Positions 8,091 to 46,900 of a stretch of 64,000 bases of DNA are shown in pieces. The stretch's first letter is position 1, and every line of letters begins with the position of its first letter. The DNA lies in the NCBI RefSeq assembly GCF_963576615.1, contig NC_088711.1, forward strand, positions 8,488,869 through 8,552,868. The letters run 5' to 3'. A program made the translations under genes and the position numbers. The DNA is from Watersipora subatra (Eukaryota; Bryozoa; Gymnolaemata; Cheilostomatida; Watersiporidae). The notes below the pieces were generated by a model. It did not search any database and had not been told where the DNA came from. It was given only the letters and a program-made list of their open reading frames with translations.

Positions 8091-8901
8091 CTAAAATGCT
8101 GTTTTCTCGTGGATGTAAACTTGTTACTACGAGGTCGAGTTTAGAGTCTGACTGGCATCCCAGCTCCCGTGCTTCTGTTTCCCTCGATATTTGTAGGAAA
8201 CTTTTTAAACCAATCACCATTCATTTTGAAATGAACTAGGGTATTTTACATATGCGACGTGTAAAACGTCGTAATCATTATATTGTATTATTATAATACA
8301 GAACGTGATTGCATTTATAGACAGCAAAGTAGGCGGTGTGTCACGCCCACAAGTTAAGGCGCGTGTTACTAGAATACTGTTTTGATGAACAAGGGGTTTT
8401 AGTAAAAAATCGACCCAGAGTATCACAACCTTCTAACGTCAAGCAGTTAGCCAACATGTGAGTACTTTACATGTATATTTGTCAGATTTTTGCTATTTTC
8501 TTAAAAAATAGATTTCATCCTATTTCTAGAATTACCATACCAAACTTTTATAGTGTCATATTTAAATATGATCGTCGGTAGACAAGTTTTTATTCTGGTT
8601 GAAGCTTGTACTAGCTTATTTTGGATTTTTATTTGATAGGGTTTTTTTGTACACACGGCCAATGTTTAATTTGTTACCTTTTTTGCCTTGGGGCCAAAAA
8701 TCCACCAATTAGCTCGATTAACCTCTACAGTAGTTTCCGAGAAACGTATTATAGTAAAAACACCACGCCGTTACTTTTAGTGATTTATTTGGAAGTCGAG
8801 CATTACCTATTCTCCAACTGATGATTATGAATAATATGAATGTATTACTCTGGTTTAAACAACCAATGCTATTGTCATGATATGCACACAGAATTATCAA
8901 G
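8091..8901. promoter_or_regulatory. Shared (bidirectional) DUOX/DUOXA promoter region
   Basis: The start codons of DUOX (minus) and DUOXA (plus) face away from each other across this 811-bp gap, which holds no supported exon. A divergent DUOX-DUOXA arrangement is known in vertebrates, where the pair is co-expressed. No core promoter motif can be assigned with confidence; a TATA-like element is not obvious among the AT-rich sequence. Confidence 0.7.
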
Positions 8902-17900: not shown

Positions 17901-20900
17901 ACAGAAACTCACCACCTTAGCCAGAAATCCAAAGGTTTCTTTCTGATCGCTTCACAGTGTCATCGCCTGTCCGCACCATTATCAGTGTCTCTAGAATCTG
18001 CAACCATAAAGCTGTAGTAGTTTACATGTATGCAAATGTGGTGGCTGCTAGTTTCATTTTTAATGATGTTGATATATGTTAATTAAGGTGTGATTGTCTA
18101 TTTATGCTGGCTAGCTTTGCCAGTTTAGCTAAATTAAAAACTAAAGAATGCCAACTGAAATAACCTTTAACAGACTGTAGATGCAAACTTTCCATTGATA
18201 TCAGGAGTTGCATAGCCAGGTTAAAAAGGTTTAATTTGAACCACTTTTTTTCAAAGTCATTTATCGGCCAGTCACCTACCCGAAACTTGTTAAAGGTATT
18301 TCTAGTAGTTCTACTCGCTGACCCTCTGACAGCGTGTGATGCTGACATTGAACTAGCTGCACACATAATACACAAAGTTCATTGTCCATAATGTCCGTAG
18401 CAAAAGCGATCACTGCAAATTATCACATTACAAGCTCCTTGCTTTTAAATGTCCTTCAGTATTTATTTTTGGTCAGTTATTATACCAGCTATTATTATCA
18501 GTTATTATACCAAGTTCAGAGTTGGCTTTTAATATACAACAACTTTTTTTTAAAATGTTACCATGACGAGAAAAAACACATTAAATGATGGAAAGTGAAA
18601 TGGAAATGCTCTTCTCAAACTGAGCAATAGCACCCACTGAAGTTGAAGTTTTCTCCAAAGATTATCAAAAATTTTCAAACAGTTTCCATTTCATCTCTGT
18701 GTATCCTATTCGTTATTTTGATGAACATTATTTGCTATTTCCGCTTTTTCTTAATATATTTTCAGGAAGTATTTAAGCTCATGATATGTATTACTTGCCG
18801 GAAGACTATGGATTAAATATTTATTGGAACTTTGAGCAGTTGTAATGTTCTTTTAAAACAAAGTGTCTATTTTGTTAAATATTGCTTACGCCAAGGCATT
18901 CAACTGGGATCGTTAAACAGCTACATGTAGCAATAAAATACCTCTAAAATACAAGGAGTTGTCTGCTTCTTTTAAAGATCAACTGATATTAGAGAGCATA
19001 TCGCAGATCTTCTACTAAAAACCTGTAGAAGCGGTGACCAAAAATACATTTGTCTAGAATGAAAGAGAAAACAGTTCCCAATTTCATAGAAAGTACTATT
19101 TTTTTCTGTGTAATCACTGCACATTTACTGAACTGCTACCTAAATTCACTACTATTATTATGCATGTGTTTTAGGACTGCATTTTGCTGTTGGCTTTTAG
19201 CCAATGTGCTCTATTTCATGAATCCCAGACTGGGTGGTTATATGACTATGATCATGGGTGGTTTTCTCATTACCGGCAACATTCTCTTCTCTTCCATTCG
19301 TAACTTCAATGAGTTGGTGATTCCATTTGAGAGTGGCAAGCTTGAACCGGTCTATGGCTGGTGCTACTGGCTCAACCTTGTAGCCGGTCAGTTCCAAGTT
19401 CTTAGTCTACATCATTATTTTCCGTGACATATTTGCCTGCACAGGCTTGTTTTAGTAATAATTGGAGAAGCCTTTGTGTGCCATATGAGGGTGATAACAG
19501 GTAGTAGCTGTGTACAGTAGTTTTACTGGATGGATAAATTTCCTTCAAGTTGAGCTATTTTTATACTAGCTGATGAGAACAGAGTACGTATTTGCTATTT
19601 GATCATTTGCGTATGTTCGAAGGATATGTATTTGGAATGGATGAGGTATTTTTCCAGTTGAGGAATGTTGACACGTGAAATATGGAACAGTGGTAAGATA
19701 AATGTGTTACAAGAACCTTAAATATTACAAAAGCGTTCTAAGAATTACTCATTGACTCATGTTCATTTAATGTACAGGGTATTTATATAGCATTTAACTG
19801 TTTTATGCTTCACCTAAAGCTTTCTGCATGTCATTTCCTTATCGATTACTAGGTGCGACTCATCTGATTGGTTAAAATTTTTAGTTCCTCATGCGCCTTA
19901 ATTATTGACCCTAGAAAGATTTCTTTGTATTTACTCATGTACTAAAGTCATCATCTGGTATAACGAGTGGTGTGTAATGAGTGGTGTGTAATGAGTGGTG
20001 TGTAATGAGTGGTGTGTAATGAGTGGTGTGTAATGGCAGGTGGGGTAACACCTATATATATATAATAATAATATCTCATTTTCTTGTAGGACTTCTCAGT
20101 ATTCTCATAGGGCTCGCTGTCGTCATTCTCGATATCTTCATCCCTGATTGGCTCGCTGCCTTCTTTGGTGTTGATATTCTCAAAGACTACGAAGAATTTT
20201 ATCCAGGTCACCCATTTATAAGACTCTTGATAACCTAGAACAGTTTTGAACTGTTGTTCCTAATCCCACCTTATAAAACTATTATGAATCCACACATTCC
20301 TACCTACAAACATAAAGTATGCGTTTGTGGTTACAATGTTATGCTAGCATGGTAAGCGCTTGACTGGATTACTGAATAATTTGTCAGTCAAGTTGAAAGC
20401 TTCTCACTAAGTTTTCATGAGGCAGTAATTTTGCCCAGGTTTGGAAAATATCATATTGGCTTTCAATTTCATAGGGAGTTATGTAACTGGAGATTTCTGA
20501 AAAGCAATCTATCTGCAAAATATGAATATATTTCGAATTTATGTACAAGGTTTTTGAAGATCGTGTGGGTATTCGCAAACAACATGTCGAATGTCTGCAA
20601 TGGCCCACCAATCTGTATTTATGTAACCTAGTTTTCTCGCTATAGACTTTTTAATAAAACGGAAGCTTTGAATAAAGTAGCCCCTAGAGGTTGAGCAAGC
20701 AAAGGTCAAATTACATTAGGACATCAGCGGTCGCTGTAGTTTATCTTTTCAACGATCTTTCTTGTTTAAAGACTGACAACCTCTTCATAGTTACTTACTG
20801 AATGGATATTAACTTCTTTAAACACTTTGTATTCATGGTGTTGACTTGATAACATCAGTTGCGTGCTTGAGTATGTGTGATTCTACATATATACAGACAT

Positions 20901-23900
20901 TTTTCAGCTGTGTGCGTGCGTGCGTTTGTGTGCGTGTGCGCACACACACTGTATGCTGTGTACACACATACTTGCGTATGCAGCTTAGAGCTGTCTGTAT
21001 ATAGGTAGAATCACACATACTCGTGTACACAATTGAGAACTGTCTGTATATAGGTAGAATCACACATACTCGTGTACACAACTAAGAACTGTCAGTATAT
21101 AGGTAGAATCACACACACTCATGTACACAACTGAGAACTGTCTGTATATAGGTAGAATCACGCACTCGTGTACACAACTAAGAACTGTCTGTATATAGGT
21201 AGAATCACACACACTTATGTACACAACTAAGAACTGTCTGTATATAGGTAGAATCACACACACACACTCATGTACATAACTGAGAATTGCCTGTATATAG
21301 GTAGAATCACACCCACTCATGTATACAACTGAGAACTGTCTGTATATAGGTAGAATCACACACACTTATGTACACAACTAAGATCTGTCTGTATATAGGT
21401 AGAATCACACATACTCGTGTACACAACTGAGAACTGTCAGTATATAGGTAGAATCACACCCACTCATGTATACAACTGAGAACTGTCTATATATAGGTAG
21501 AATCACACACACTCATGTACACAACTGAGAACTGTCTGTATATAGGTAGAATCACACATACTCGTGTACACAACTGAGAACTGTCTGTATATAGGTAGAA
21601 TCACACATACTCGTGTACACAACTGAGAACTGTCTGTATATAGGTAGAATCACACACACTTATGTACACAACTAAGAACTGTCTGTATATAGGTAGAATC
21701 ACACATACTCGTGTACACAACTGAGAACTGTCTGTATATAGGTAGAATCACACACACTTATGTACACAACTGAGAACTGTCTGTATATAGGTAGAATCAC
21801 ACACCCTCATGTACACAACTGAGAACTGTCTGTATATAGGTAGAATCACACACACACTTATGTACACAACTGAGAACTGTCTGTATATAGGTAGAATCAC
21901 ACACACTTATGTACACAACTAAGAACTGTCTGTATATAGGTAGAATCACACATACTCGTGTACACAACTGAGAACTGTCTGTATATAGGTAGAATCACAC
22001 ACACACTTATGTACACAACTGAGAACTGTCTGTATATAGGTAGAATCTATGTTTGTCTCATTCTACTTATATATAGACAGTTTGCAGCTGTTTTAGTACA
22101 GTGCTGTTCCAAGATTCGACAAATGAATCTTCTGAAAAATTATTTTTTTTCTCATCGTTTCATCATAGACACCATAGATATCATAAGCCTCAGTGCCCCT
22201 TGAGATTAATCACTTTTGCCTTGTTTATCTTGTTTCCTTCAGCTGCTATATATATTGGCGCATGGCTGCAGTATAGCATCTGGCCACTGCATTATTTCTT
22301 GCTCAGACTTTTAATGATTTTAGCAAAAGTGTCAAGCTGCTTTTATGTAAATAGGTCAGTTATTTATAGGCAGAGTTTGGTTTGTGCATAACTAGTTTTA
22401 TATGGACAGGAAGATTATTTTTGTGTTGTGTTTGCTTACAGAGACCGAAGATGCTGCGACTTCTGACTCATCAACCTCCAGGAATGGAGGAAATGTCGAG
22501 TCCCCTCCCTCCTCTTCTACAAATCGTCAGTCAACGGTTGCCATGCCACAGTTTAGGAAGCGAGGATTTACTGTCAAGGCCAAGGTAAGGTGAAGCTTGG
22601 CATTTATGTGCGTGTTCTCTCGGCTGCCTTTTACTGCAAGGTGAAGTGGCAGAGTTAGTAGAATGTAGCTTTAGAAATTGCTATGCGCTTGCAGAGGCCC
22701 GTTGCACCTCCTCGAAGAGCACCGAATCCAGACGTGGGGGGTGACGAAGAAGGAATGGAGCTCTACGAAAATGCTCCTCGATTGCGTCAGGTCAATGGAA
22801 GCAGGTTAGTCTATACTTTTTTATTGGGAGATAAGAATTTACAGAAGTGAAATTATTTTTTGTGTCGCTGCTTGCTGCTGTTGTATTTGCTTGTCTATCG
22901 TGTATGTTTCGGCTTGATTCGCTAATTAGCACGGGAAACGGAGGATCAACTGATCAAGGATTTGCTATTTCGTTAGAAGGAAGTGCTTATTCAGTATCTG
23001 TGTTAAGATTTTTAAGTTGCTTGTCGCAAGGTAAAACGTGTATACAGTAAGTAGCTGTGCTTGACCTTTACTGACCTTCTAATTTTCACTTTTAGATAGA
23101 TGTGCTACTTTAGCTCTTGATCTCCTTTGTGTTTTTATTATTTCATGTCATAGAAGTACTACTTGATAGATACAGTTGTTAACGCAGCGCAGCTGATATT
23201 AGTTTACCAAGCATAATAAGCCTTATGTGACCTCAATTCCTACCTAACCTTCTCTAATCTATGATTTTTAAAAAGGCTTTGAAATCTGGCGTGATCATCA
23301 AGTTCTGGCATGGGCAATTGGAAACGTCTGTTTTACAAATTCGTCTGAAGCTGTCTGTTCTGTAGACTATTTCCCAGACTTTCAGGCATGAAAGACAACT
23401 AGCATATCCTGCTTAAATACTCACTTTTTATTGAATTTGATAACTTTTAGATTGCTTGCCTCGGTTTCCAACTTTCTAGAGTCTAGACCATTTGTGCTTG
23501 TTTAGGACATTTCTAGCAGGAAGTGGCGCTGGCATGGAGTGATTCACTCTCTCTCTCACATCAAGATTATGGAAATATGGAAAGCGTTGCTGTAGTTTAA
23601 ATCCTTTTATGCCAAAATGCCAATAACAAGCTTTTTATTGGCATTCTGTTTGCTGTACTGTTGGAATGTCGAACCTTCTGATAGTACTTATAACTAGTTT
23701 TAAGATCTGGCTCTTTTAAGTAAAAGTTCACTTTAGCATGTTGCATGATAATGTGGCTTTCTGAACTACCATTGTTTATCTAAAATGCTTTGTGGTTTAT
23801 GTTGTTCTTTGTTTCCAGGTTACGACTGGGGTGCGTGCATAGACCAACCTCGTTCATTCTTGCTGCTTGTTTATTTTTAGTTATTGGCGCTGTCAAACTG

Positions 23901-23969: not shown

Positions 23970-26420
23970 ATCACTGTTTGTTCAAGATATGTGATATAAG
24001 GCTGTCACTGTTTACCAGCCATTACCCAAGTCAAAAGTTAATCTTATATCACAGTATGCTTCCTCAATGAACTCTTATTAGCCACTTGTATCAGCTTGTC
24101 CTCTCACAGTCTGCTATCGTAAACCATTATCCGGTTATGTTTTGATCAAAGCACTTTGTTGACCAAATCAAAGGCAAATGTGAAGAATAGAAATTGTTAA
24201 TTGTCTCCCTTGCTTCTTTCCCAATATTCATATCCATATCTCCTATCCATCCTATGCATGATTTTATATGTGCAATTATTATTGTAATGCACTGGACGTG
24301 AATGGCTTACACAGCCAGGCTACAAGAGATCTACAAGAGCTCTGCGAGGCTGGTTAATGAATGCAAATAAGTGAAAATTGAGAGCATATCTTACAAAATA
24401 ATATGTCAAATTTCCTTGCAAAACATTCTTTAGACCGAAAAATGAAGCTCTTTCATTCCCAGATGATGGGTCACCAATTACTTGAAGCACTCTGTTGTTT
24501 CAACTTGACTCGCCTGAATAGTATGTTGTTATAGTCATCGGGATGACCTTTATGCAGATTATTATGCTAGTATAATAAAACATTAGATAGTGAATTACAT
24601 TGAGATTTTGTGGCGTTTCAAGGCAGCTTAGCGCAAATCAAGTGTGATCAAGCGATCAGTTTTAAAATTTGTTATTATTTAATTATAAAAATTACCATTT
24701 TATTTAATAATAAAATTATTATTAAAATCTGCAGCTTTGAATAATCGAGAATCTTGCCAGTCAGCATCTTGTCTCATCTCTGGAAACAGCTGTGACAGCA
24801 ATGTTTGTGGATCAGCAGACTGATATCCTTCAGTTTGTATATTGATACATATCGATATGGTCTCTGTACACTGACTAGTTAACTTATAATGCTCATACTG
24901 ATTGCAGTGAAGCCTCGGCTGATAAAGTGAGCTTACATGAAGAATAAATCATTGGAGTTGTGATCTCTTCATGTGGCTCTCGGCCTCGCACGCTCTTAAG
25001 TTGCAAATCTGGAATTTAACATTCTTGATGGCACCAAAATCAATTGGATTTCTTGTTTTTAAATTTTTGTACCCATGTTCGTTGCAAGTATAGAACATTA
25101 CTTATATTTTCATAATTTTATGGTCACTTCATAGGATCTTATATAGAATTTATCTTGCACTTTGTTAGTATGTTGTACACATTTATCGCTTATGATAAAA
25201 ATACATTCTTTTTTCTTATCAGCAAACTTGTTTAACAGAGCTAGTTTGTCAGTTATAATTTTACATAAATTCGATTGTTGATTTGTTACAACTAGTAATA
25301 CTACATAAGGCTCATTATTCTGCAGAATCGGCTTTAGGGTAAATTTGTAACAACTTCCTAGAAATGCCTTTGTCAAGTATTCTTTTTCCATGTTTGAGGT
25401 ATTCACCACTTTTTAAAAATTTTGACAAGTACTATTATTAGAAAAATAAAAAAATGCCGTACAATATCTTGTGTTCACATATATTTGTTCAATAGATTAA
25501 AGGTCTTATTTTTAAACCAGTACACTAGCAGAGTAATGGTGAGTTATTCTTCAATATTAGATGGCATGGTTGTTCATTTGGTGCCTGGAACAATATTTTA
25601 ATTTGTTACAACTTGAAGCATATGGCTACTTTCATCATTTGGTTGGGTGGTGGAAGACAACGTCGTGTCCAAAGGCTTTTTCAAGTTTGCAACAAATGAT
25701 TGGCTGTTTTTTCTTAAGGCTAATTGTACTTGAGTTACTAATAAATTTTACCTATGTCATTAGTTTAGTAGAATGTCTACATCTTGTGTTCTACCGATTG
25801 ATAAGCTTGGAGTTTGCCTTGTTGGCTTGTGAAATAAGTTTAGCTCATAATAATTTTTATTACAGTGTACCTTTTTCAATTACCGGCAAATGTAATTTTA
25901 CAAGGTTAGAATACAACATACATTTATTGAGAGAATCGGCTACAAAAATATATTAATAGATTTGGTGTTCAGCCAGCAGGTCCATTATGTATTGCACTAA
26001 AATAGATAAAGTTTGTTTAGCTAGCAGTTGAAAAATGTTTTACAAAAGTTGTCAAGGCACAAAAGATATTTACTTGAACATATGTAGCTTTTTTTAACGT
26101 TTTTGGCTAAGTGAGTTGTTTTTATTATAACATCACAGAATTACTGACGTGAGCTGTCTAACTACAACATATGAGGAGAAAAAGAGAATGAGGTCACAAT
26201 AGCGTTTCAGAAGCGAATGCCGGCAGGTTGCCAGCGTATTAGGCTAAGTAATCACTTCTAGAGGAAGTCATCAGGGACAGCACCGCTCGGCCCCGTAATG
26301 ATAGCCATAGTAGGAGTATTAGTAGTCACTGCAATAATGAATTTAATTATTATGGAATGTATCACTTGAACGCTTAAAGGAGTAAGAGATACATTCAAAC
26401 TCGCTGCACACCGCAACTTA
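23970..26420. other. Intergenic region between DUOXA and the secreted-protein gene
   Basis: The two genes converge here. Open frames at 25110-25409 (minus) and 25561-25956 (plus) are AT-rich, match nothing I recognise and have no coding-like partner exons. A minus-strand AATAAA at 26121-26126 could serve the gene that ends at 26421. An AT-rich inverted-repeat patch lies at 24660-24725. Confidence 0.6.
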
Positions 26421-29400
26421 CTAGTAGTAGAAGTTAGGCTGAACCATTTGATCTTGTGAGCAGTGTGAACAAGCACAGCTTGCAACCTGTTTCCAAAGGA
26501 TAATTCTTTCACTATCCGCTTCATCACTCCCAAACCCGCTGTCATAGGCATCTACTACACCCATGTACATGTTTCCATCCTTCTCTGTAACAAGCAGAAG
26601 CTAAATAGTTCAGCTAGAAGGTGTTTTGGGCTACGCCTACTGTCTCTGTCTTTGGGCTACGCCTACTGTCTCTGTGACACCTATTCAACGGCCACCTGAC
26701 TTGCTGGCAAACTTTTCCAATGTATGTTAGATGTATGTATTTATGGTTGTTATGTTAATGTTAGAAAGAGTTTATTGCCCTTGTGTTGCACAAATTGAGA
26801 AGACAATTCTTCTTTTATGGTAAATGGTGGCAGCAGTTGCTCACCTTTCCAATAAATATCATACGTGTCCTCCACAATATGCTGATTCTCCTGACTTCCA
26901 CATCGTTCTTTCTCTTCTCTTTCAGTTTCATTCATTCTCCTGTCGACTTCCATTCTTATCAGATCTGTATCCACTTCCTGTAATAATTATACGCGTCATA
27001 AAACTTATTTGCATTCCATTATTATAATACTGGTATACATATTTGGTAGTTTATGTCTAACACAAGTCTAACAGACCAAGTTATATGGAGTTATCCTTTC
27101 AACAGCTTTAAACAAATCTTATTGTGACGCTAAAATCAAGATTATGGTATGATAGTTAATAAAATTACCTCATCTGTGATCCCATCAAGGACATCTTTCA
27201 ACTCTGAGAGATATCGGGCTTCTAGAACATGATTCAAGTAATATTATTGGTGCAATTTTAATATCTAGACTCACAGCTTTACGATTTCAACAAAGTTCCA
27301 GCGTGAATAATTTTTCAAGAAAATACGTTCAACTGATTTACGATTTATCTGTTATAAAGTTAGCTTTTTGTTGGTGAATGTACCCTTATTCTGCTGGTTC
27401 ATAGCGCAAATGCTGATACTATGATTCTAGCTATTGTGCCAACTTTTTTACCTTGGATCAAGGCCAGGTAGCGTGACTAAATGCGTCTATAAGAGTCATA
27501 CGAACGACTAGCTCTGACAACTAGTTTTGTGATATGAAGTGTAAAACTACATGTACAGTCTAGTAAGCAAGGGTCGGTTTGGAATGACCGCCAATAGCTA
27601 GGAAAGTTGTTTTGTCATAGATGCAGAGGTTGTTTGAAGCAAATACACCAGATCTAAGGCACAGTATATTCACACTCTGTTTGGATAAGAGGATAAATAC
27701 AAAACACCGCCGAATATGTGTATACAACTTATAACGTTATAAAAATGTTAGTAACCTACTTTTGAGCTCTCGTTCCTTCTCTCCTTGAGTGGGTGGAAGA
27801 ATCCTGAGATCTTTATTCAACAGCATTCCAGCTCCTTGCTTGAGCATCTGCTGTAATTTTCTCTGACCACAAGTTGAGACGGGTAGCGGCGCTGCCTCCA
27901 TTTGGCCAGACTTCAACTCTGAGGCTTGACCAATCAATTCTGCCATCTATAGTAGCACATGTTATTAGTCAAAATAATGTCTTGGATGTTATTAGTCAAA
28001 ATAATGTTTTGTGATACCTTTGATCTTTTGTAAAGGAATACTAAGAATGAATTGAGATCATAGGTAATAATTTGACCATTTACCTTCTCAGACTTATCTG
28101 TTGTACTCCTCACTCCAGGGCATGTCATGTTTTCTTTCTCTAAAGTGTGTTTCAGCTCACTTACTTTGTCATCAAAGCTACCCTCTTCTAGTTCCTTTTC
28201 TCTCTCTTTTTTCTGGAATAAAAAACCCGACAAGGTAACAATTGGGTTAAAGGAAACATTGACTCATAGTAACTGCCACAATGTGATTGAAATATTTTTT
28301 TATAATATGACCACATTACTTTTGTTATCTGTAAAAAAAACATAAAATCATCATAACATAACCTTGTAAGGAAATATGTGCATTGGTCATTGGTTGAGTC
28401 GACTTATAAGGATGTAAGTATAAGGAGACGACCTTATAAGGAAGTTTTAGGAGTCAACTTTCCTGATTACTGTCTTTTCATTTTTATCTGTCTTTTGTCA
28501 TGTAATGAAAAACATCATTTTGTTGACGATTACCGACATCAATAAAAAGGTATACCTATATACATAAGAAAATATGTACATTAGTCTTTGAGTCGTTGTA
28601 TAGCTTATTCAAATTGTAGATTTTCACGACTGTTTGTCTTAAAACATTCTCAGCTTTTGCATAGCAGAGTTTCTGATAGATTTATAGTCTATAACTGCGT
28701 TTAGCACCATTTAATGTTCATAACATTCAGAGTTGCTATGCGAAGAGATCCTCTTATTAAAACAGCAAGAGAGACAGCGTACATTTTCCCAATCTGAAAT
28801 TGCTTCCTCAATGGCATCATCTTTCTCATCATCGCCTGTCCGATCTCCTTTCCATTTGTCAGCAGAAACATCTTCTGGTATATCACACTCATCATCAACG
28901 CTGACTGTCAAACAGAGGAGTAGGTTAAGTGAACAAGGAGTTTAGCCAGCTAGCTGGTCAGAAGTTCTTAATTGCTTCTTTGAAAGTAATAATAAAGTAA
29001 TAATCTATGAATAGGCTCTTCATCTAATACGTAGGAAAAGTAAAACTTGACACGTTTAGTAGCATCCTGGAGACACACATAAAAGAGACTTGGTAACATG
29101 TGCGCAGCAAACAAATGCCTCAACCAATTTTCAAGAACTCGTATACATGTTTGAAAAAATTTCCGAAATGAATAATATGCGAGGTCATGTTTAGTAACAA
29201 TTTGTATAAACTATTCTACTAACTCATTGCTACTGGAAAACTTCACAAATATTTTCCTGTCTTTTAATTACAAGTTTATGTTAAAAATGCTGCAAAATAG
29301 TGTAATAATCGTTTAACTCAACAATGTTTGGCATAATGTATAACTAAATAACATCTACTTAACAAGCTTTAAAAAAGTTTTTACTGAAAGAATTCAAGAG

Positions 29401-32400
29401 CACTCTTACAGCCATGTTCATCATCCAGTGCGATGGCCGCCTCCCTTGCTGCATTGAAGTTTTCTTGCAGTTCAACGTCATCACGGAGTTTAGTTGAAAG
29501 CATATTAAACTGAAAAAAATCAAAAACAATAGATTTTTAGATTTTTGAAGGTACTGCAAGCACTTCCACTCAAGAATAGTCAGTCATAGAAAAGATGAAA
29601 ATTCTGACGCAAACGTACCTCAATCATGTAAATGTAGGTGAAGTTACACCAAAGATTAGAAGCCTTATTCCGCTTATTCATGACATTTTCGTAAGTCTCA
29701 ACAACCTTGGTAAGGTTAGCTAGTAGTTGGTCTCTGACAGCCTGTAGGTCCTCATCATTTCCAGAATTCGTTTGTCTCTTCTTTCTTTTCATTGCCTCCT
29801 GCAATCAATGGACTAACTCTAACCCTAGCACAATCATTATATGCAACTTTGGTTTGGTGGTTGACAAAGGATGAATGATTCTAGTGGTCTATTCAAGCGG
29901 GTACCATCTATCCATAACACATTTTATCTTACATGTATTTGAGAAAGCTTAGTGTTCATTAACGAATCCAACAAAATCCTAAAGTTTTAGCTCTTACAAT
30001 GACAAGTATTGCAAAGCATTCATTCAAGGTTGACAGAAACTACCTGACTGCATAGACATAGATATCTACATAGATATAAATATCAACATTGACTTATGGT
30101 GACATAAGCATCAACATATACATAGATGTGCGCAAAGACATCGAAATTAACATTGACATAGATGTCGACAGAGACATTGACATAGATACCGAAATTGACA
30201 TAGACATCGACATAGGCATCAACATAGTCACGGATGTTAATATAGATCTCGAAATTAACATTGACATAGATGCCAAGATAAAAATCAACATAGACATATA
30301 TGTTGCCATAGATATCAAAATCGTTGAAGCTATCGTAATCTACATAGACATTGGTATCAACGTAGACATGGATGTTGACGTAAACATCGACATTGACATG
30401 GGTAATCAAAGCTTGGCATCAAATAAACACCTTCATACACTGATGATACACAATACTAGATCATCGGATTGGTGTTAGTCTAATGCAGTCCTGCTATGGC
30501 AAGAATATGCACATGTAATTCATCCATAGACTCATAGAGCATGTAAATATACAGCAATGCATCTTATAAGTTACCATGTTGCCTGAAACAAACATATCTC
30601 TGTCATCACTCTTTTCTTCACTCTCCACTTCTTGGCAGATTGTAGGGTCAAGATCAGCCAGCTTCTGCAGCCTCCTTGCAAGCAAGTTATTTCTGTTGAT
30701 TTCCGTAAGCTGAAGAGAACAATAGCGAACAGGAGGTCAGCTGACATCTTAAGGCATATGATTAAGATTAGAGACTATTATCTGAGTTTTAGTAATAGTT
30801 ATATTAGCTGAGTTGTGACCTTGACCTGCTAGGGTAAAAAGCTTACTCCCATTTTCTCTGATTATGAATAATAAATAAATAAAAGACCTCTGTTCACAAC
30901 AATTCTTGGATATCTTGTTTATGTTATACAAAAACATGTGAATGAAGGATTATCCTCTCATGTTGTAATTGAAGGTTCATCACTCAGAATCTGTAATATG
31001 ATTTAACACATTTTATAAACAATTTGTACTTTTTTATGTTGTCATCCTTACTAGAGCCTTTACGGAAACGTTTATATACAGAGATACAGTACTAGTTTAT
31101 GCACGAGATCTTTGCAAGCCACATGAGTGTCGAATCACCACTCTACTAAACAACGAAGCAAATTTCTGTTAAAGATTAATGATTTTTTATCATAGTTTTA
31201 TATAAATCTTTTTAGGAATAAAGGCTTTTCCATATATGTAAATAATGAACTTCGTTGGATTAAATAACCTGGCATAAAAAATTTTCTAAACAAAACTCAC
31301 CAATTCTGCGGCTTTGTTTATTTAACCTTTATTTAATATTTATGGAAATTAACATAATATAAGCCAAAGTTGCAAATAAAATAGGTCTACCTCAACATAA
31401 TAATCCAGGTCTCTGCATTCATATGGCGCATAACGCACGCCTTTATTTGAATAGTACAGAACTGGCAGATCGTAGTAGAAGAGTGCTGCTCTATGTCCTC
31501 GAGACTTGAGGTTTACCTCTACCTCACACTGACCTATAATGGCCAACATAAATTCAGTGCAATCATCTCAGCTGAAATGTTTTATTATCAAGCACCAGCC
31601 AGTGATTTCTTACCATGTTACCAATTGATTTAAAAGAAATTGTGTGTGTATGTAAATCAAGTTTACTTCACTCATCGTATTATCCGTAAAACTGCACAGA
31701 TCCTCTCGGGGTATTTATCTCATCAAAGTAATATAAAAAATAAAAGAAATTGCTGTAGCTTAAACTTCTAAGGTAAGGCAAAAAACCCTGACTATGGTAT
31801 TTATATTAGTATTAGCACCGCTAGGTTATGTATCCGATTCAGTATCTGCTCGATTTTTTTTAAATCAATCAACAGCTCTAACACTTTTCCCAATATTTAC
31901 TATTAATTGTATAACCATGTCTTCGCTAACCCAGGTTTTTATTATCTATATCTATATTTCTCAGAGTCAGTTCATCTGTCTGTCATTCTGGCTATAGCTA
32001 TTAATTGAATAGCGTAGCTGGGCAACAATGCTGACGCAATGTCATTGCCTACCAGCATTTGAAGCTTACTAACTAGCACAGTGGAATTTTTCATTGGCAA
32101 TGCGTCAGGCTACTTGGCAATGGCCTACCACTTGCTGGAGAGTTGCCTGCTAGCAAGTGGTAGGCAAATCTCATCACTTCTCATTGTTTATGAGCTGATT
32201 TTTAATAACCGGACAACGCCGGGAGGCACAGCTAGTTCAGTTATAAGTATCTAATGAATTCTCAAATAAGTTATTTTTTTCCTGCCTGAGCTATGTAGCT
32301 GATAAATTCAAAGTGTAATGCTCCTGCTTTAGTCAAAGTGTAAATAATACATAGCACAATTCTTTTTTACAATGTTTTAAGTTATTACAACCACTCGTCG

Positions 32401-35400
32401 GCTAGGAATGCAAAGTAATACATTTACTAGCATCACAAAACTAAATTCACATATTTCTTCCGCAAACACTCACAAATAAAAATACGTATAATTTATTTAT
32501 ACTTTTTGTAATAAAAATGACTATCAATCAAGCAACAACAATTTTTAGAACAGTATTTGAATCTAATGAGATTTAGCGGATTGGTATTTAAATCGACTTT
32601 TGATCTTCAATTTCTATTTTATATCTATTTCTCCTCAATGAACAGTAACTATCAATGGGATTAAAACTATCAGTTTTTTAAACCTGAACTCAAAGATAAA
32701 AGCCGATGTTATTCCATAGATAACTTACCATATCCTTCATAGAAATCGCTGCAGTCATACGTGATGTTAATGATGATAGCATTGTTACACAAGTCAGTGT
32801 CCTCATTCAGTCTCAACGGATCAGCAGCAATAACCAGTTGTGCCTGATGAGCTACAATAGTGGCATTACCCTATAGTAATGTGTATTACAACAGGTAGTC
32901 GATGGAAAATGCCTGCTATGGTCCATGTCTACTCAGCTATGGAAAGCTCTTCTAGTGGTGCATGTATACAATTACATAAAACCAGCTTGCAGCTGTACAT
33001 GTATACACTTAAATCTTTACTATAATAAGATCCGTGTTCATCTGTCTGTCCAAAGCCACGCTAGGAGCCTTAGGAAAAACAATGGTAAGCATGGTAATCG
33101 AACCCAAATATTTGGATTCTCAGCCAAGCACACTACCATTTGCCCTACCCAACCACCTTTACACATTGAAGAATAATTGTGCACATAGTTATTACACGTA
33201 CATATGATGATATCTCATGTCATCATATGATATCATGTGATATCTCATATCTCATCGCAGAACTGCCAGGGTACTAGTGGACTAGTACATATAAAAAGAC
33301 AAACATTCTTTGACTAAAGCATAAAAACTTATGCAGTTATGACCTAACTTGAATTGAATTGCACTGACAGACCTTTGTAGTTTAGACTGATATACTAAAC
33401 TTGAATTGAAAGTGTAGATAAAGAAATATACTATCACTAGATATGGCATGGCGTAGCAGGTGATTGTTAATATCCTACATAGATCTTATTAGATCAACCT
33501 TATAATAGAAACATACAGCCTTTGATCAGATATAAGAATAAACAAAGTTAGTGAACCTACTATTATCTGCTGTAATCATGGTATTGGAGCAAAGGCTAAT
33601 CTTTGTAGCTGAACTTAGAACGACATCAGTCAAGGAAATACTCTCCATTTCTCCAGCATCCAAGGCACCTGGAAGATTAACTGGACATCAGGTATAACAG
33701 TGTTAGGGGCACAGATAACAGTGTTAACACAAGTAGTATCAGCATATATTAGTACAGAGGTAGGCATGTAGTAGTACAGAGTAGGCATGTGGTACTACAG
33801 AGTAGGCATGTGGTACTACAGAGTAGGCGTGTGGTACTACAAAGGTAGGCATGTGGTAGTACAGAGGTAAGCCTTTTAGTACTGGAATAAGCATGTCATA
33901 TTCTAGGAACAGGAATATAATGAGATGGAGGTGAGCATCTAGTAATCTAGAGGCAAGCATATACCAGAGGTAAACATATAGTAGCAGAAATGTAAACAAA
34001 TAATAATAAGCAGTCATACCTCAACATACGAGTACCCCAACATGCGAGAAAATTGAGATATGAGCAGGGTTTTGAACAAGTTTCTTAGTGTAGAAGTAAA
34101 CATATATTAGTATAGAGGTAACATATATTAGTATAGAGGTGAATATATAGTAGTATAGAGGTGAACATATAGTAGTATAGAGGTAAACATAATATGTTTA
34201 CCTCTATACTACTATATGTTCACCTCTATACTACTATATATTCACCTCTATACTAATATATGTTTACCTCTATACTAATATATATTCACCTCTACACTAC
34301 CATATTATGGTAGTGTAGAGGTGAATATATAGTAGTATAGAGGTGAACATATATTAGTATAGAGGTAAACATATGGTAGTGTAGAGATGAACATATAGTA
34401 GTATAGAGTTGAGCATGTAATATTATGCTCCACTTCTTCAGCCAAAGCAAGCAAAGACATTGCGAATATTTGGAATGCATTTAATCAAATGGAATTACTC
34501 TTTCTGCAAAGGTATTCACTCAGGTAGATGGTCAAAGCATGGAATGTAGGAAGTGTTTGTATTAATTGCTCAACATACTTTCAACAACAATATCTCCCCC
34601 TAGGAGAGGAACATCAGTCTCCATGTCGATAAATCCCCTGCTCATACAGTCCACCACACTATCTACGTAGTTTTCTCGCTGAGCGACTGTAGACTCCCAC
34701 TCATCAAACCAATAGTCGATTTCGCTATAGCCCATAGACGACCTCTTGTCTCTATATGTAATCATAATTCCTTGTAAATGACCATCAAGCAATTAATTCA
34801 AAATAGTAATTTCTCGAAGACATTCCGCAACTCACAAATAAGTTGGAAATAAAACTGACTGACAATAAGACAAGAGTAAAACAGTTTAAACTGACTGGAG
34901 ACACCGTCGGAAAGAGAGAGACTGATATCAGCTATTTAAGACAAGGAGAAGTAAAGCAGTCTTATACCTTGAAGCATCCTGTTTTGACATTCTAGTTGAT
35001 CGCTTTTGATAGTTCGAACCAGAGGCACCTGATGGGCCTGAGTGACCTCCGGTAGGGCCAGTATAGTTGGTACCTCCGCGCATGCCGCTACCTCCAGAGG
35101 AACCACTACCTCCATGCATGCCGGTAGCTCCAGAGGAGCCATTGTCACCATAGGGGCCAGTTTCATAATAGCCACAGTCTCCCGCGACCTTCTCCCTGAT
35201 ACCTGTAGATATGAGTGAATTGAATTCTATTTTTTCATCAAGACGATTCCAAAAAATATACCATAAAAATCATTGATGAAAGCTCCATGTGCATAGTTGC
35301 CTGGCTAATTGAGGTGCAGAGCCCAGTATGACATAAATGTACATGTCATCTTTCCTATTATTTACAGTTCATGCCATTAAACAGCATGTGCAATTTACTT

Positions 35401-38400
35401 ACCAATATACATGTACTCTGCCATGCTAAAGACCAATAGTTTAACTTTTTGCAATAAATACATGTATATATACAGAAGAGACATCTATAAGAAGTCATCT
35501 GTTCACAATATGTAGTGTAACCGCAGCACAATGCAAACAAAACATCTTTAGCGAGCAGACAACTTCATATCAAGTTGATTATTGTGTGAAAAATTTAGGT
35601 TGAGTCTAAACTACATGTAGTTGATTTACCCATAATATTTGGTAGATAATGGTTGTAAAAATATCAGCGTCATCAAATGTTAAAAAGTTTTTCTAGCAAT
35701 TATTGGCGGTCATAATGTTATATTTTGTATATTATTGAATTAAATAATATATTGAATATTATTATTTTATTGAGTGGTCAGCATGACCAATATTATCTTA
35801 GTATGATTGGTTGAAAAAATCTTTTAACAAGTTTCAACAAAAATTTTAATACAAAATCAATTTATAAATGTACTTAAGAGCATACCATCATCACTCTGAA
35901 TGTACTTGCGAAGAAATACAAGAACTGACTGAGCAAGTTCTTGCGATCTCATTGGCATAGCCTCTGGCCCATTGTTTTTCAACTTTAGGTCCTAAAACAT
36001 ATTAGATCATTGTTACAAGATCTTACAAGTTTCTGCAGAAAATCTAGCAGGCTCATATATACTCTACAACTACTGTAGTCTATTAGTAATACATGTACTA
36101 GTAACAGTTTACTAGTTTATACAGCTTTCTATAGATGCTTACAGCATTCTAAGTTTATATACATGCATATATACTACAAGACTCTACAAAACTCAACAAG
36201 ACGCTACAAGACTACAAGATTTTACAAGACTCTACAAGACTCTACAAGACTCTACAAGACTTTACAAGACTCTCAAGACTCTATAAAACTCTACAAGACT
36301 TTATAAGACTCTACAAGACTTTACAAGACGCTACAAGACTCTACAAGACTCGATAAAACTTTACAAGACTCTACAAGGCTTTACAAGACTTTACGCACAT
36401 CTCTATGATCACATCGATATGTATATAATGTACAACATTCTTGACAAGATTCATTGAATTTCAAATACTCTCTTTACAGAATTGAATAGATTCTCTGTAA
36501 ACATGTCTAGAAATGGTCAAGTCCGTATATACTCTACAAGTTTTTATATAGAGGAATTCATGGATACTCTGCACGTTTCTATATAGAGAAGTTAATACAT
36601 GTATATACTCTACAGAATTTAATATAGAGAAATTCATATATACTCTACAAATGTCCATTTGCTTGCTTCCTTATGTCTACACACTGTACTATTGTACAAC
36701 AGAATGTTTTCTGTTCGCATTTATAAGTCTTTCTCCTAAAGTCTCAAAAAGTTGAGTTTTGTTGATAATAAAAAGTTTATCTTTATATATATTTACATTT
36801 AATATCTAGAAACTAGAGGGTTGATTGTTATAATTTTAAAATTTTAACAGAAACAAAAATAAGACAAGTTGAGAAGTTTTCATCACTATTGAGCTACATT
36901 TTATAGACGTGCAAACATATCAAAAACTTTATTGTCTGACCTCCAAAGCTGATAGACAACTTTGATCCAGAAGTTTTTCTCCCAGATTAACCCTGCAAGG
37001 TTGTGATCTTTCAAAGCTTGACATGAGTTCTAGGTCAATGGGATCATCACACTTGGATACAATTCCAGCTCGAGCAATGCCAGGCGACATTCCCTCAGCC
37101 GTCACGTTGACAAACAGACAAGCTATAAATAAACAAGCATTAACCAAACAAGTATATATAAATACATATTTATATTATTACATATTATGTTATATTATAT
37201 TTTATCCATTATATACCATATTATATATATAAATATATACATAAATATATAAGCAAAACTAAGTTACAAGCTTTATCAAAGAACAGAATATGATGCAGTT
37301 AAGTAATTGTTGTGAACTCAGGGCAGATACAAAGCATGGAGATGTTTCTGAACGAGTGTCTCTTGTATTGCATACATTTTCGCCGCCAATGCTAAAATGT
37401 CTATCAGCCAGAATGCTGTATAAATCTAATGGAGTTTGCATAAAGTACTATTTTTCTTTCCTTGAAACCATATCTGTTCTTACCAAAAGTAAACACCAAA
37501 GAAACAGGAGTATTTGTAGAACCAAGACTATATCTACCTGGGCCACACTTGATGTCAGCCGAAGTCGTTTCTGTATCGGAAAGGATGTACTCTCCACCAC
37601 CAGCTGGCACATCAACAGTCATCTCTGATCCAAGACTGATGGAATTAGTTGCCACGCATCTGCTGTTGATCATCACTTTGTACTTGACTGTCATGTCAGC
37701 GTCTCCCATATTTTCCACAACTAACTTCACCTCCCCTCCATATAGACTCTGTCAGGTAAAAACACCATTAACGCTGTGTCACTGTCATAACATCAATTTT
37801 ATGAACTTTTATGACAGTGCTTTCTCGTTTGGCTATTTTAATAATGTATTTCAAACTTATGATTTTCTCAAATCTTTGCATCTTCTCACTCTGCCTATGC
37901 CTAAATTATGTTAATTATAAGTTTTAAGATCTTTTATGGCTTCTGTCCTCATATTTACATGACAATTGCATGTTTTCAACTCATTTCAACTTATGTGATA
38001 GAAACAAATTGCGTACAACTTGTAGCAATTATTTTGAAAATGTTATTGCTAGCTTCATTAACAATTTTTTACTTAATATCTGCTCTCTTAACGAAGAAAG
38101 GTACTCATATTTTAAGCACTATAGATGTATGTCAAACCATTCATTTGATTTGTAGCACTAATTATGATTCTTGCATGACATAATTTGGAAAACATTTCTG
38201 TTTGTAATGAAAATATTGCCAATAAAGTAATATAGGCTATATATATATTTATATATTTATAATATATATACTACATATAAATGTGTATATTATACATATA
38301 TTTATACATAATATATATTATTATATATAAATAACATAATAATATATATAATAATATGTATTATATATTATTATATATAATATATATTGTTATATATAAT

Positions 38401-39858
38401 AATATAACATATACTAATATATTTAATATATACAGTGATATATTTATTATTTATATATTATTATATATAATATATATTATTATATATAATAATATAGCAT
38501 ATACTAATATATTTAATATATATAGTGATATATTTTTTTCACTGTATATATTATACATATATATTATATATATTATAAATATATATATATGAAGGTATTT
38601 TCTAGTTTTGGCAAACACTTTATATTTCATTAAATATTATTCTACAATCAAATAAAGATATATATATATAATAAAGATATAAATATAATAAAATATAATA
38701 TATATAATATTATATTATAAAATATAATATAAAGATATATATATATATAGATATATATATCAAATAAATAATATATATTATTATATATAAATAACATAAT
38801 AATATATATAATAATATGTATTATATATTATTATATATAATATATATTATTATATATAATAATATAACATATACTAATATATTTAATATATACAGTGGTA
38901 TATTTATTATTTATATATTATTATATATAATAATATAACATATACTAATATATTTAATATATACAGAGATTTTTTTTTTTTCACTGTATATATTATACAT
39001 ATATATTATATATTATATATATATATATATGAAGGTATTTTCTAGTTTTGGCAAACACTTTATATTTCATTAAATATTATTCTACAATCAAATAAAGAGT
39101 ATCTCGTACTTAAGAACACATTTGCCAACTTTTAATGCTGAATGTACCTAATTGTGAACCCCTATTGATCATAGACATTACCATATAGGAAATAAAGCTA
39201 TGTCATAGTTAAAAAGCTCGCCAACAAACCTCAAGTGTCGATGCTTTTTCATAAGCTGGAACCGCTCCAGATGGCACAACAAGGTGAGCTTTCAGCTTGT
39301 TGAACTGTACGCTGACATCCTCTTGAGCCGTGGCAGCTGAGATATACGCAGAGAGCTCATTATTAATTTATTATACAATAGTTATAGTCAGCGACGAAGC
39401 ACAAACCTAACGATTCTAGAGATGAATTATTAACTTGGCTGATATGCCAACGCCAGCAAGAACAAGAATATACGAAAACAATTGCAGCATTTCTTTTACT
39501 TGTCACCACAAGTGATAAGTTACACTATATACATAAATGTTATTGTCATTTATGTATATATATCTATTTTATATTTTATATTTTATTTATATTCTATTTT
39601 ATTTTATATATTTTATTTTATATTTTATATATTCTATTTATATTTTATTGTCATAGAACTACACAATCATATGTATGTTTAGTTAGCTATTTTCATACTA
39701 AATTAACCAAAACAAGCCTCGATTTATAAAAATAAATCTACAGAAAAATAATTGCGGCTTTTGGCGAAAAACGAATAGGTATAAGCAGACGTATAGTAAG
39801 ATATGCACTTACTAGAGATGAGAAGCGCGGAGAGAAGAGCAGAAGCTAAAGACTTCAT
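26421..39858 (-). CDS. Unrecognised secreted glycoprotein, about 900 residues, 19 exons
   Basis: I do not recognise the family. Exons in coding order: 39813-39858, 39230-39336, 37484-37748, 36941-37122, 35886-35991, 34968-35202, 34579-34751, 33561-33668, 32729-32870, 31391-31533, 30575-30709, 29619-29798, 29410-29509, 28783-28904, 28084-28212, 27760-27946, 27169-27221, 26845-26977, 26421-26584. Every junction keeps frame except exon 8 to 9, where a short exon may be missing. Exon 1 is a signal peptide (MKSLASALLSALLIS). Exons 2-4 look like an Ig/CARDB-type beta domain (EVKLVVENMGDADMTVKYKV). Exon 6 is Gly/Ser-rich. Exons 7-10 are Cys-bearing. Exon 12 begins with a furin-like RKKR. Exons 12-18 are charged and probably helical. 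At least eight NxT sequons (such as NVT, NYT, NAT, NIT, NLT, NFT, NMT, NET) fit an extracellular protein. No membrane anchor is seen. Confidence 0.85.
26624..26676. repeat. 25-bp direct duplication
   Basis: tttgggctacgcctactgtc plus tctg occurs twice in tandem in the last intron of the secreted-protein gene. Confidence 0.85.
30050..30405. repeat. Degenerate 6-bp-based repeat (acatag/acattg type)
   Basis: A low-complexity tract of gacata, gacatt, gatgtc and aaatta-type hexamers in the intron between exons 11 and 12. Because the period is a multiple of three, all frames on both strands stay open and give artificial I/D/Y/V-rich peptides. It is not coding. Confidence 0.85.
31945..32235 (+). mobile_element. 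Helitron-like non-autonomous element
   Basis: Starts with TCTATATC and a block shared with other copies (gttcatctgtctgtc at 31970). It ends with a short hairpin (CCGG at 32209-32212 pairing with CCGG at 32219-32222), 9 bases and then CTAG followed by T, the usual form of a Helitron 3' end. It also holds a 13-bp hairpin, cctaccacttgct/agcaagtggtagg (32124-32164). No target duplication is seen, as expected for Helitrons. It lies in an intron of the secreted-protein gene. Confidence 0.6.
33018..33275 (-). repeat. Dispersed element with tRNA-like promoter, copy 2
   Basis: The minus strand carries tagggcaaatggtagtg (A box-like) and gggttcgattacc (B box-like). The outer blocks gttcatctgtctgtcc at about 33034-33049 and actgccagggtactag near 33248-33264 match copy 1 at 14278-14490. 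Confidence 0.55.
33765..33875. repeat. Roughly 20-bp tandem repeat, about 5 copies
   Basis: Copies of gtagtacagagtaggcatgt with small indels, between exons 7 and 8 of the secreted-protein gene. Several copies are shifted by one or two bases. Confidence 0.85.
34090..34415. repeat. 22-bp repeat arranged as two back-to-back palindromes
   Basis: A gtagtatagaggtgaacata-type unit runs forward to 34191, reversed from 34193 to 34304, then forward again from 34306. The first centre (34192) has at least 55 bp of perfect arm and about 100 bp with one indel. The second centre (34305) begins ccata-t-tatgg. This block could form cruciform DNA. Confidence 0.93.
36165..36392. repeat. 10-bp-based tandem repeat (actctacaag)
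   Basis: About 20 copies of acaagactct/acaagacttt variants in the intron between exons 4 and 5 of the secreted-protein gene. Confidence 0.9.
38230..39110. repeat. Very AT-rich block with a roughly 450-bp tandem duplication
   Basis: TATATAA-rich sequence in which the stretch beginning gaaggtattttctagttttg occurs at 38591 and again at 39031, and an ataacataataatatat-type stretch at about 38330 and 38790. The two halves are copies with small indels. It lies in intron 2 of the secreted-protein gene. Confidence 0.85.
39550..39655. repeat. tattttata-type low-complexity tract
   Basis: Degenerate (TATTTTATAT)n repeat in the first intron of the secreted-protein gene. Nothing else is visible here. 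Confidence 0.75.
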
Positions 39859-43395: not shown

Positions 43396-43439
43396 TTTGA
43401 TTATGGATACAAAAATGTATGTGGCCACATCTCAGGGCA

Positions 43440-43955
43440 TATGTATACATGTTCACATAATGCATATGTCTACATGTTCCCATAATGCATATGTCTACAT
43501 GTTCACATAATGCATATGTCTACATGTTCACATAATGCATATGTCTACATGTTCACATAATGCATATGTCTACATGTTCACATAATGCATATGTCTACAT
43601 GTTCACATAATGCATATGTCTACATGTTCACATAATGCATATGTCAACATGTTCACATAATGCATATGTCAACATGTTCACATAATGCATATGTCAACAT
43701 GTTCACATAATGCATATGTCTACATGTTCACATAATGCATATGTCTACATGTTCACATAATGCATATGTCTACATGTTCACATAATGCATATGTCTACAT
43801 GTTCACATAATGCATATGTCTACATGTTCACATAATGCATATGTCTACATGTTCACATAATGCATATGTCTACATGTTCACATAATGCATATGTCTACAT
43901 GTTCACATAATGCATATGTCTACATGTTCACATAATGCATATGTCAACATGTAGA
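43440..43955. repeat. 25-bp minisatellite, about 20 near-identical copies
   Basis: cataatgcatatgtctacat plus gttca; the only common variant is gtcaac for gtctac. The high identity suggests recent spread. The array ends in acatgtagacatat, a short inverted copy of part of the unit. Confidence 0.96.
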
Positions 43956-46900
43956 CATATCGGTATCTTTGCTTAGCTATAGCTAGAGTCAACTACCTTC
44001 AACGTTGGTTTTTGCAAACCGCTAAACATTATAATTAATTTTCAGGGCCTCAATTTTAATTTCAAATATTCAAGATTGAATATTCCAGCCGACCTTTGCA
44101 CCGTTGTCTAGTCGCAAACAACAATCTTGACTAAGCATACAAATGGTAAGAAGTAAAACACAAATATAGCTTGCTATATAGCTGTCCCCTTGTAATATAG
44201 CTATACCCTTGCTATATAGCTATACCCTTGCAAGGAGTTGTATATACAAATAGTCACTCACTGCATACACGAGATACTATAAGTGGACAAGCTAGCAGCT
44301 CATCGCCACAGAAAGAACATTCAAGGCAATATTGATTACCCTACACAGAGTTATAGATTAGGTTTTAGCTCCGGATTTGAAAATTTGAGACGAGATTGAT
44401 TTTAAAGCATTTACGAACAGATACAGTTCACTGACCGCTTTCAAGTTTCACTTCCATTACCTGAATAGGTAAGGAGAAAAGATCAAAACTGGTGCAATGA
44501 CTACTTTCACTTTCATATGTAAAGACAAACTGTTGTAGATGACCTCAGAAAAGATTGTTGTGGCTATCGCAGGAGACAAGTAAAGATGTTTTTATGATTG
44601 CAACTTTTCATCTTTAGCCAAGCATAAGAATCAAAGAAACCTTAACAGTCGTCTGATGTAACCAGGTTGTTAGAGCGGAGTACGCTGACCTCAGCCTTGC
44701 TTGTGTTTAGTTAACTACTTTTGAGCATCAGAAATTACAAGTACCTCCTGCACACGACGTGATGGTCTTCATTGCTGCTAGGAAATATTACAGTGCGGTG
44801 TAAGATCTATAAGACTACACATAAACCTAGAGGTTGACCTTCATTATCAGTTTTTCACCTCTGTTTTAGAACATTTGGCAGCTTCCATCACATTCAAGGT
44901 CAAGTCGTGTTGAGACGAGGCTCTTTGCAAATGTTTGATCCAAATAAATATTTCACGTTCATAATGCGAGACGATAAGGCTGGTGCATGCTATATCGCCA
45001 TATGTCGGCGATACAATACATCGCTGATAGCCTGTGGTAACAGCGTTCACGACAACGATTATACAACACGGTCACCAGAAATGATGAACTACCGGTACCG
45101 CAGAAGTTATCGTGAAGGGACATAATAATAGATCGAGCAATCTCCAACAGCCAACTACTATCGCCGGAGTGGATCGCATTGTACAGACTGTAGCGGATGC
45201 ACGTCGAGATATCAAGAAAGTTTGACTGCTGCAATGTTTCTTGACATATCTGTGTTGCCTGGGCGATGCTGTCGGTCTAAGGTGCGCATGGCCGACAAAT
45301 AATCGCTGAGAGCACAACACCGACATATACTGCGATACAGTGTAAACCAGCCGTAAGCTCCCACTATAATCATGTGACAATTAAAATGTCACCAAATGCA
45401 TAGTTTATTGGGTAGTCTTTGAATTGAAATTAATTGTTAAATATGACACAAGATGAGTTGAATAAATAAAAGAAATAGCAATGTATTGTTAAGGACTCCG
45501 TTAAATGTTTACTTATCTCTTAGGACACTAAAGATGCAATCTAAAAGGTGTCACTATTGACTACCTGCAGGGCCTTGCTAAAAGCTTGTGTCAACAATGA
45601 TGGGAATGCATTATCATAAAATCATAACTCAGGTATTCAATGACACAGTCCAAAAGAAAATCTTTGGTCATAAATCGTTAGTTGAACATTTTTTAGACAG
45701 TGGTTCACAAGCTACAAGCAAGTGATCCTTCAGTTGCTATCAAAAAGTGGAAATGCAAAGCCTTTACAAACATTTTAAAATTCACTAAATTTCTATAAAA
45801 TGTTTGCTTTTGCGTTCCACAGTAAAACTTTGAAAATGGTAAGAACTTAAAAAAGGGTGCTGGAAGTGCTGGTCAACCTAACAGGTTGTTATTGCCGAAA
45901 ATTATGCCGCTCCCAACGCTTATGTGTAAAGAAGTAGGAAAGTGATCGAAAACAAAAAGTTATTTCTTTGAGGCTGAGACTGGCTAATTAGGTTCATAAT
46001 TTTTAGCTATAAACTAATTGACCACGAACATATCATTGGCAGTCATTAATATTACTAGCAGTACTAGTCTTTAAAAAGTTCTCTCCAGGGAAAGCTTTCT
46101 AGCTTCTACGAGAATTACCAATTGTTAACTCTGGTATGTGACTTCCGTTAATTACTAGCTTATTAACAGTATAATTGAGGAGATATCTTCATTGCTTCAT
46201 AGGCGTTATGGTGTGAGTAGATGTGAGTCAACTACATTTTGCCAATTTTCAAGGTTATTAAGTAACTTTGATTTATACTTTGAAATAAAAATTAACTTAA
46301 AACCTAACTTAATACAATATGTTGACAACGAAGAAAAAATTAAAAAAAGTCAGGGTTTGTTTAAGATTATTCTAAGAAAATGTCGAGCACGAATGCTTCA
46401 GCACCCCTCAATTTGACTTCAGCTGCTACCCCTACATGAATAGTGCTTTTACCATGTGACTCTTCAATAGATGAAAAAAATTTTTGTATTCAAAATCTTT
46501 TGTAGTATCGGCTGTATCATTGACGACAAAAAAAGTATAAAGAAATTGACAACTTCAGCATTGCCATGCATCTCTCGATATTTGGAGCAAATTCGGTCTC
46601 AAATATACACAAGTTTTATTGATATTTTCCTTAGGACAGAGCTTTAAACGTTCTGGCTTAAAGTCTAAGTCTTTTGTCCCCTTCTACAATACACTACTCG
46701 GTCACTACCAATACGAATATTTAAGAAGAATGCACTAAATGCTAATGTTGTTGAGATTGCTTTAAATTGAGGCACTTTCATTGTCATCATGCAGTCTACC
46801 AATGCTTCAGGCAAACACTGTGAGCACCTAGTCTTATATATTACTCGTTATTATTAAGGCTGTTTCATCTACATTTAGGAACAACAGACATGATACGTAG

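Follow-up and report, generated by a model that had tools for sequence, protein, structure and literature searches.

A 19-exon gene of Watersipora subatra predicted to encode a secreted precursor with two furin-type sites and no convincing family match

What kind of protein is encoded by the long run of exons on the minus strand between positions 39858 and 26421 of the 64,000-nucleotide stretch of the Watersipora subatra genome analyzed here (contig NC_088711.1, forward-strand positions 8,488,869 to 8,552,868; henceforth, the window), and does it belong to any recognizable family? An earlier note, made from the letters of the sequence, had read these exons as a large secreted glycoprotein of unmatched family. 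We find a joined frame of 896 residues, and we tentatively favor reading it as a precursor, most likely secreted, that is processed into linked chains and has an extracellular role, structural or adaptor-like, and not an enzymatic one.

The nineteen exons, which had been described as joining in frame with one gap into roughly 900 residues, need no such gap: their phases match throughout, all 18 introns are GT-AG, and the continuous frame (39858..26421, minus strand) spans 2691 nucleotides, or 896 residues plus a stop. The joined sequence contains a single in-frame stop, which is its final codon; the remaining two frames contain 43 and 92. G+C at the three codon positions (0.53/0.39/0.42) is close to that of neighboring exons (0.52/0.38/0.45; 686 codons drawn from parts of the DuoxA, BMAL1, and presumed DUOX genes), and the introns, about 10.7 kilobases (kb) in all, have a flat G+C of 0.30 (each intron slice carried one extra exon base). 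Scored with the codon usage of the same neighboring set, the gene has a log-odds of +87.8 in frame and of −189 and −296 in the shifted frames, where each stop carries a penalty of −3; exons 2 and 5 individually score near zero. Reading frame and splice pattern, like the signal-peptide and cleavage motifs described below, are direct observations on this gene.

Independent gene-finder runs recover much of the same structure. The finder is a simple dynamic-programming program with average amino acid frequencies and generic splice matrices, and its outcome varies with the splice weights. Under strict weights, it predicts two genes in the region and reproduces 5 to 6 of the 19 exons exactly (five settings), with a plus-strand score of 0.1 and scores of 0 in all 15 dinucleotide shuffles. 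Under softened weights, it predicts a single gene from the same ATG, with 13 of 19 exons exact in each of five region settings, and, over the whole window with tandem repeats masked, one 19-exon gene from that ATG with 15 of 19 exact. The region then scores 79.2 or 115.2, depending on the setting, versus 0.0 or 12.5 for the plus strand; 20 dinucleotide shuffles all score 0.0 in one setting, and 19 do so in the other, with the last at 1.7. Several modeled splice sites stay below 0.5 even under softened weights, and their loss under the strict threshold is therefore likely. The whole-window run also predicts partial DUOX, DuoxA, and BMAL1 genes, as well as two small plus-strand genes that we judge doubtful. 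(A first version of the finder was discarded; it merged genes of a strand.) Because the finder chains the exons while its controls score low, we regard this as one animal protein-coding gene, real and probably single.

Its features are as follows, where "model" denotes the manual 19-exon join and "region" or "window" an exact match by the softened gene finder in that run:

39813..39858, minus strand: exon 1, with the start codon and the core of the signal peptide (model, region, window)
39230..39336, minus strand: exon 2, end of signal peptide and start of domain A (model, region, window)
37484..37748, minus strand: exon 3, holding the core of the beta-type domain A, with a weak DUF7407 match (model; finder took the alternative donor)
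36941..37122, minus strand: exon 4, remainder of domain A, four Cys (model, region, window)
35886..35991, minus strand: exon 5, helix-prone (model only; skipped by the gene finder)
34968..35202, minus strand: exon 6, Gly/Ser-rich spacer in the modeled frame (boundaries: model, region, window)
35069..35158, minus strand: ten consecutive Gly-X-Y triplets, residues 251-280 (modeled frame of exon 6)
34579..34751, minus strand: exon 7, start of domain B (model; finder shares the donor only, with its acceptor at 34770)
34742..34751, minus strand: furin-type site 1, R-D-K-R, residues 314-317 (spans the exon 6/7 junction in the modeled frame)
33561..33668, minus strand: exon 8, domain B (model, window)
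32729..32851, minus strand: exon 9, domain B (model, region, window)
31391..31533, minus strand: exon 10, domain B (model, window; region shares the acceptor only)
30575..30709, minus strand: exon 11, helix-prone stretch that closes domain B (model, region, window)
29619..29798, minus strand: exon 12, furin-type site 2 and beginning of the charged C-terminal part (model, region, window)
29775..29786, minus strand: furin-type site 2, R-K-K-R, residues 546-549, inside K-R-K-K-R
29410..29509, minus strand: exon 13 (model, region, window)
28783..28904, minus strand: exon 14, acidic (model, region, window)
28084..28212, minus strand: exon 15, charged, helix-prone (model, region, window)
27760..27946, minus strand: exon 16 (model, region, window)
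27169..27221, minus strand: exon 17 (model, region, window)
26845..26977, minus strand: exon 18 (model, region, window)
26421..26584, minus strand: exon 19 and stop codon (model; finder shares the acceptor only in region and window)
26121..26126, minus strand: candidate poly(A) signal AATAAA, 3′ of the stop codon

The motif AATAAA occurs three times in the 621 bases 3′ of the stop and is frequent in A+T-rich DNA.

At the protein level, the proposed signal peptide stands as a motif: by a motif rule, a core of ASALLSALLI goes with Ala in positions −3 and −1 relative to a cut after residue 19, although cleavage after residue 15 or 17 likewise satisfies the rule. Judged by motif alone, then, the N-terminal signal peptide expected of secreted proteins is present. 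Furin-type R-X-K/R-R sites number two, where one had been reported (shuffles contain 0.23 on average, and 2% of them have as many as two), and they separate the spacer from domain B and domain B from the charged part. They delimit three segments: residues 20-317 (chain A), a beta-type domain followed, in the modeled frame, by the Gly-X-Y run; residues 318-549 (chain B), Cys-bearing and flanked by the two sites; and residues 550-896 (chain C), acidic and helix-prone. These segments carry 7, 7, and 8 Cys, respectively. Chou-Fasman helix/strand means (1.00/1.00 for residues 20-200 of A, 1.01/1.02 for residues 318-496 of B, and 1.06/0.93 for C) go in the direction of the beta-rich start and helical C-terminal half that had been described, although they agree with it only weakly. 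A run as long as the ten Gly-X-Y triplets arises in 2 of 20,000 shuffles of the segment, and in 109 of 20,000 after removal of one copy of a 12-residue repeat; the run is in part a 36-bp tandem duplication in the DNA and has few Pro, and a further four triplets lie out of register with it.

From this anatomy, we infer expression, secretion, cleavage, disulfide linkage, and a role for the 896-residue protein. The signal peptide would be removed after residue 19, and furin-type proteases would cut after residues 317 and 549; the products would be chain A with its beta-type domain and Gly-X-Y spacer, chain B with the second Cys-bearing domain, and the charged, helix-prone chain C, all three presumably held together by disulfides. 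Either role suggested earlier, in the extracellular matrix or in body-fluid defense, would fit such an anatomy.

The spacer that contains the Gly-X-Y run is an uncertain part of the model: exon 6 is stop-free in two frames, both of which rejoin the same downstream frame. The modeled frame, which yields the Gly/Ser-rich spacer of the earlier description, requires exon 5 and an acceptor before 34751; the other, chosen by the gene finder, skips exon 5 and uses an acceptor before 34770. Both exon 7 acceptors are weak (−0.8 and −0.1), and the sites of exon 5 are passable (0.7 and 1.7). Three comparisons speak against the modeled frame: it scores 6.9 versus 9.0 for the other frame when codon usage is taken from the remaining 18 exons, −4.0 versus 1.3 on synonymous choice alone, and its codon-position G+C looks the less typical of the two. 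The codon usage of neighboring genes favors it (10.2 versus 1.6) and, with the Gly periodicity counted in, we prefer the modeled frame with moderate confidence; alternative splicing between the two frames of exon 6 (35202-34968, minus strand) is possible. Elsewhere in the model, use of a second in-frame donor in exon 3, after 37538, would remove 18 residues (both donors score 1.9), and the stop of exon 19 overlaps a GTAAGT donor, from which a splice of 26422 to 26328 gives a C-terminus of ...NFYYYDY.

Several observations weigh against a processed, secreted precursor as modeled here. The exon 6 frame and the exon 3 donor are uncertain; three of the 19 exons (1, 9, and 19) individually score below zero for codon usage; and the evidence for the protein is the genomic sequence of one window. 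The eight N-glycosylation sequons that the earlier note had counted are there, but shuffling the mature chain gives 5.7 on average, and 20% of the shuffles have eight or more; at such a near-chance count, glycosylation is not indicated and the name "glycoprotein" is not earned. Residues 133-151 have the top 19-residue Kyte-Doolittle mean, 1.64, which exceeds that of any signal-peptide window and is borderline with respect to the customary membrane threshold of 1.6; if this borderline stretch were a membrane segment, the cleavage sites would be cytoplasmic. In addition, K-R-K-K-R may act as a nuclear signal or be a basic patch that stays uncut.

Relatives were sought in Pfam, NCBIfam, PHROGs, PDB sequences, viral contigs, and prokaryote genomes, animal protein collections being outside this scope, and, consistent with the earlier failure to place the protein in a family, the first four of these contain no convincing match. 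With the whole protein as query, the Pfam matches include DUF7407 at an expectation value (E) of 0.014 and Collagen at E 0.32. Domain A alone matches DUF7407 (PF24156) at E 0.0012, its 19.5 bits being below the gathering cutoff of 28.2, and DUF5462 at E 0.056, whereas none of seven reversed or shuffled copies of domain A matches anything better than E 0.17. We read the DUF7407 match as a hint that domain A may be an immunoglobulin-like (Ig-like) sandwich, which its general appearance would suit; the name DUF7407 did not occur in the literature searched. Domain B matches no Pfam family (exons 8 to 10 return only Potex_coat at E 0.2) and, to E 10, nothing among PDB sequences, and the C-terminal part has no convincing match in Pfam or PDB sequences. 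No enzyme family scores convincingly in Pfam, NCBIfam, or PDB sequences, which counts for a structural or adaptor protein. Transglutaminases have Ig-like C-terminal barrels; neither their catalytic core nor their C-terminal domain is among the Pfam matches listed to E 10, a search in which HMMER filters hide most weak matches. Domains A and B show no internal repeat to E 10 (BLASTP). Within the window, paralogue searches return the gene's own exons and one chance-level match (60556-60642, E 0.57, with a stop inside), and Rfam has no match at gathering thresholds.

We took a number of low-scoring candidates as chance: Gly-rich linkers (from E 0.022), ISG15 (E 0.59), dUTPase (E 1.5), the PHF1 Tudor domain (E 0.77, last exons), and RavA (E 1.2) among PDB sequences. 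The NCBIfam matches, collagen-like adhesins and one hydroxylase at E 0.12 to 1.4, are all far under their cutoffs. In PHROGs, searched with three pieces, A and B have no match, and the families of unknown function matched by the C-terminal part (E 0.024 and 0.078) were taken as charged-helix noise. Among viral contigs, the whole protein gives two pattern matches, neither confirmed, and among prokaryote genomes, domain A alone (217 of 896 residues) gives 65, none confirmed; because the protein is animal, the absence of such relatives is expected. As a control on the tools, eight neighboring pieces were run against Pfam: four scored above cutoff (DuoxA at 2e-07 and 1.6e-20, HLH at 7.8e-13, and PAS_11 at 1.2e-05), one below, and three had no match. 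The same tools thus find families in neighboring genes, BMAL1 among PDB sequences included, so the missing match does not reflect an overall inability to detect families in this genome, although half of the short neighboring pieces failed likewise. Judged against Pfam, NCBIfam, PHROGs, and PDB sequences only, the family is likely to be lineage-restricted or diverged beyond detection.

The main rival to a processed secreted precursor, and a possible one, is that the protein is a fast-diverged member of a known animal family, its domain A being an Ig-like beta-sandwich. The DUF7407 match, so much better than its controls, speaks for this, as does the fact that the searches covered no animal protein collection; the score under the curated cutoff speaks against it, as do domain B and the C-terminal part, which lack convincing matches in Pfam and PDB. 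More specific, and in our judgment unlikely, is an undescribed extracellular family in which two unlike Cys-bearing beta-type domains would be combined with a short spacer resembling collagen and a charged helical segment, and furin would cut at both domain boundaries to give a three-chain complex.

That the model instead joins two genes, or has an intracellular second half (exons 1 to 10 secreted or membrane-bound, exons 11 to 19 charged with a nuclear K-R-K-K-R), seems improbable. The halves are unlike in composition, the strict finder did produce two genes, the stretch at residues 133-151 is borderline hydrophobic, and the last exons faintly resemble the PHF1 Tudor domain; yet that resemblance is at chance level, phases continue through all 19 exons, the softened finder returns a single gene in every region setting and in the whole window, and the strict threshold probably dropped the weak sites noted above. 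Still further down the scale, a body-fluid defense factor, in the form of a recognition protein that is cleaved and carries a collagen-like stalk, is very improbable. It would account for the signal-peptide motif, furin-type sites, and Gly-X-Y run, and DuoxA and probably DUOX, a mucosal-defense pair, lie nearby, although neighborhood says little in an animal genome; the run, however, is short, Pro-poor, and tied to one of the two frames of exon 6, and the Pfam matches listed include no lectin, C1q, fibrinogen, SRCR, or thioester family.

Elsewhere in the window, the gene for the dual oxidase maturation factor, DuoxA (8881-22804, plus strand), is recognized by Pfam near 8.9-9.2 and 19.0-19.4 kb and has, in the softened gene-finder run, further predicted exons at 17.7, 20.1, and 22.4-22.8 kb. 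It lies head to head with a minus-strand gene (about 1.3-7.7 kb) that we take, by resemblance, to be DUOX, two pieces of which (43 and 80 residues) have no match in Pfam. The BMAL1 (ARNTL) gene (49001-55841, minus strand) has basic helix-loop-helix and PAS-A pieces that match BMAL1 at 1.2e-40 among PDB sequences, and the end of its last exon resembles the C-terminal activation segment of vertebrate BMAL1. Within the BMAL1 region, a 392-base unit occurs twice in tandem (54556-55340, 98% matches), either because it was duplicated recently or through an effect of the assembly. Minisatellites are abundant in the window (15371-16707, 20987-22047, 43437-43959, 58028-58843, and others), with units of 11 to 49 bases in up to 89 copies, and several of them form long open frames in more than one reading frame. 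An open frame at 62577-62858 (minus strand) appears to us to resemble the end of a non-long-terminal-repeat retrotransposon reverse transcriptase.

At present, the locus offers a well-supported gene model and a predicted role only, and unmatched secreted proteins are not rare; if the family is truly new, it would bring to invertebrate secretomes, which evolve fast, an extracellular protein whose processing layout is unusual. Among known systems, DUF7407 (PF24156), itself of unknown function, aligns with domain A (mostly exon 3) over 62 of its 74 profile positions, but at the subthreshold score given above. The Gly-X-Y run resembles Collagen (PF01391), which weakly matches residues 251-299, but at 11.2 bits against a cutoff of 27.2, and the run is very short. 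Unlike C1q/TNF-type collagen-stalk proteins, the protein has no C1q or TNF domain, by sequence, after its Gly-X-Y stalk. The closest general likeness may lie in molluscan mantle secretomes, as an analogy that claims no mollusc or biomineralization link: one survey (PMC4897951) reports unmatched, lineage-restricted, modular, partly repetitive secreted proteins in all secretomes surveyed, and the protein described here resembles them in its signal-peptide motif, modular build, low-complexity segment, and lack of a family match.

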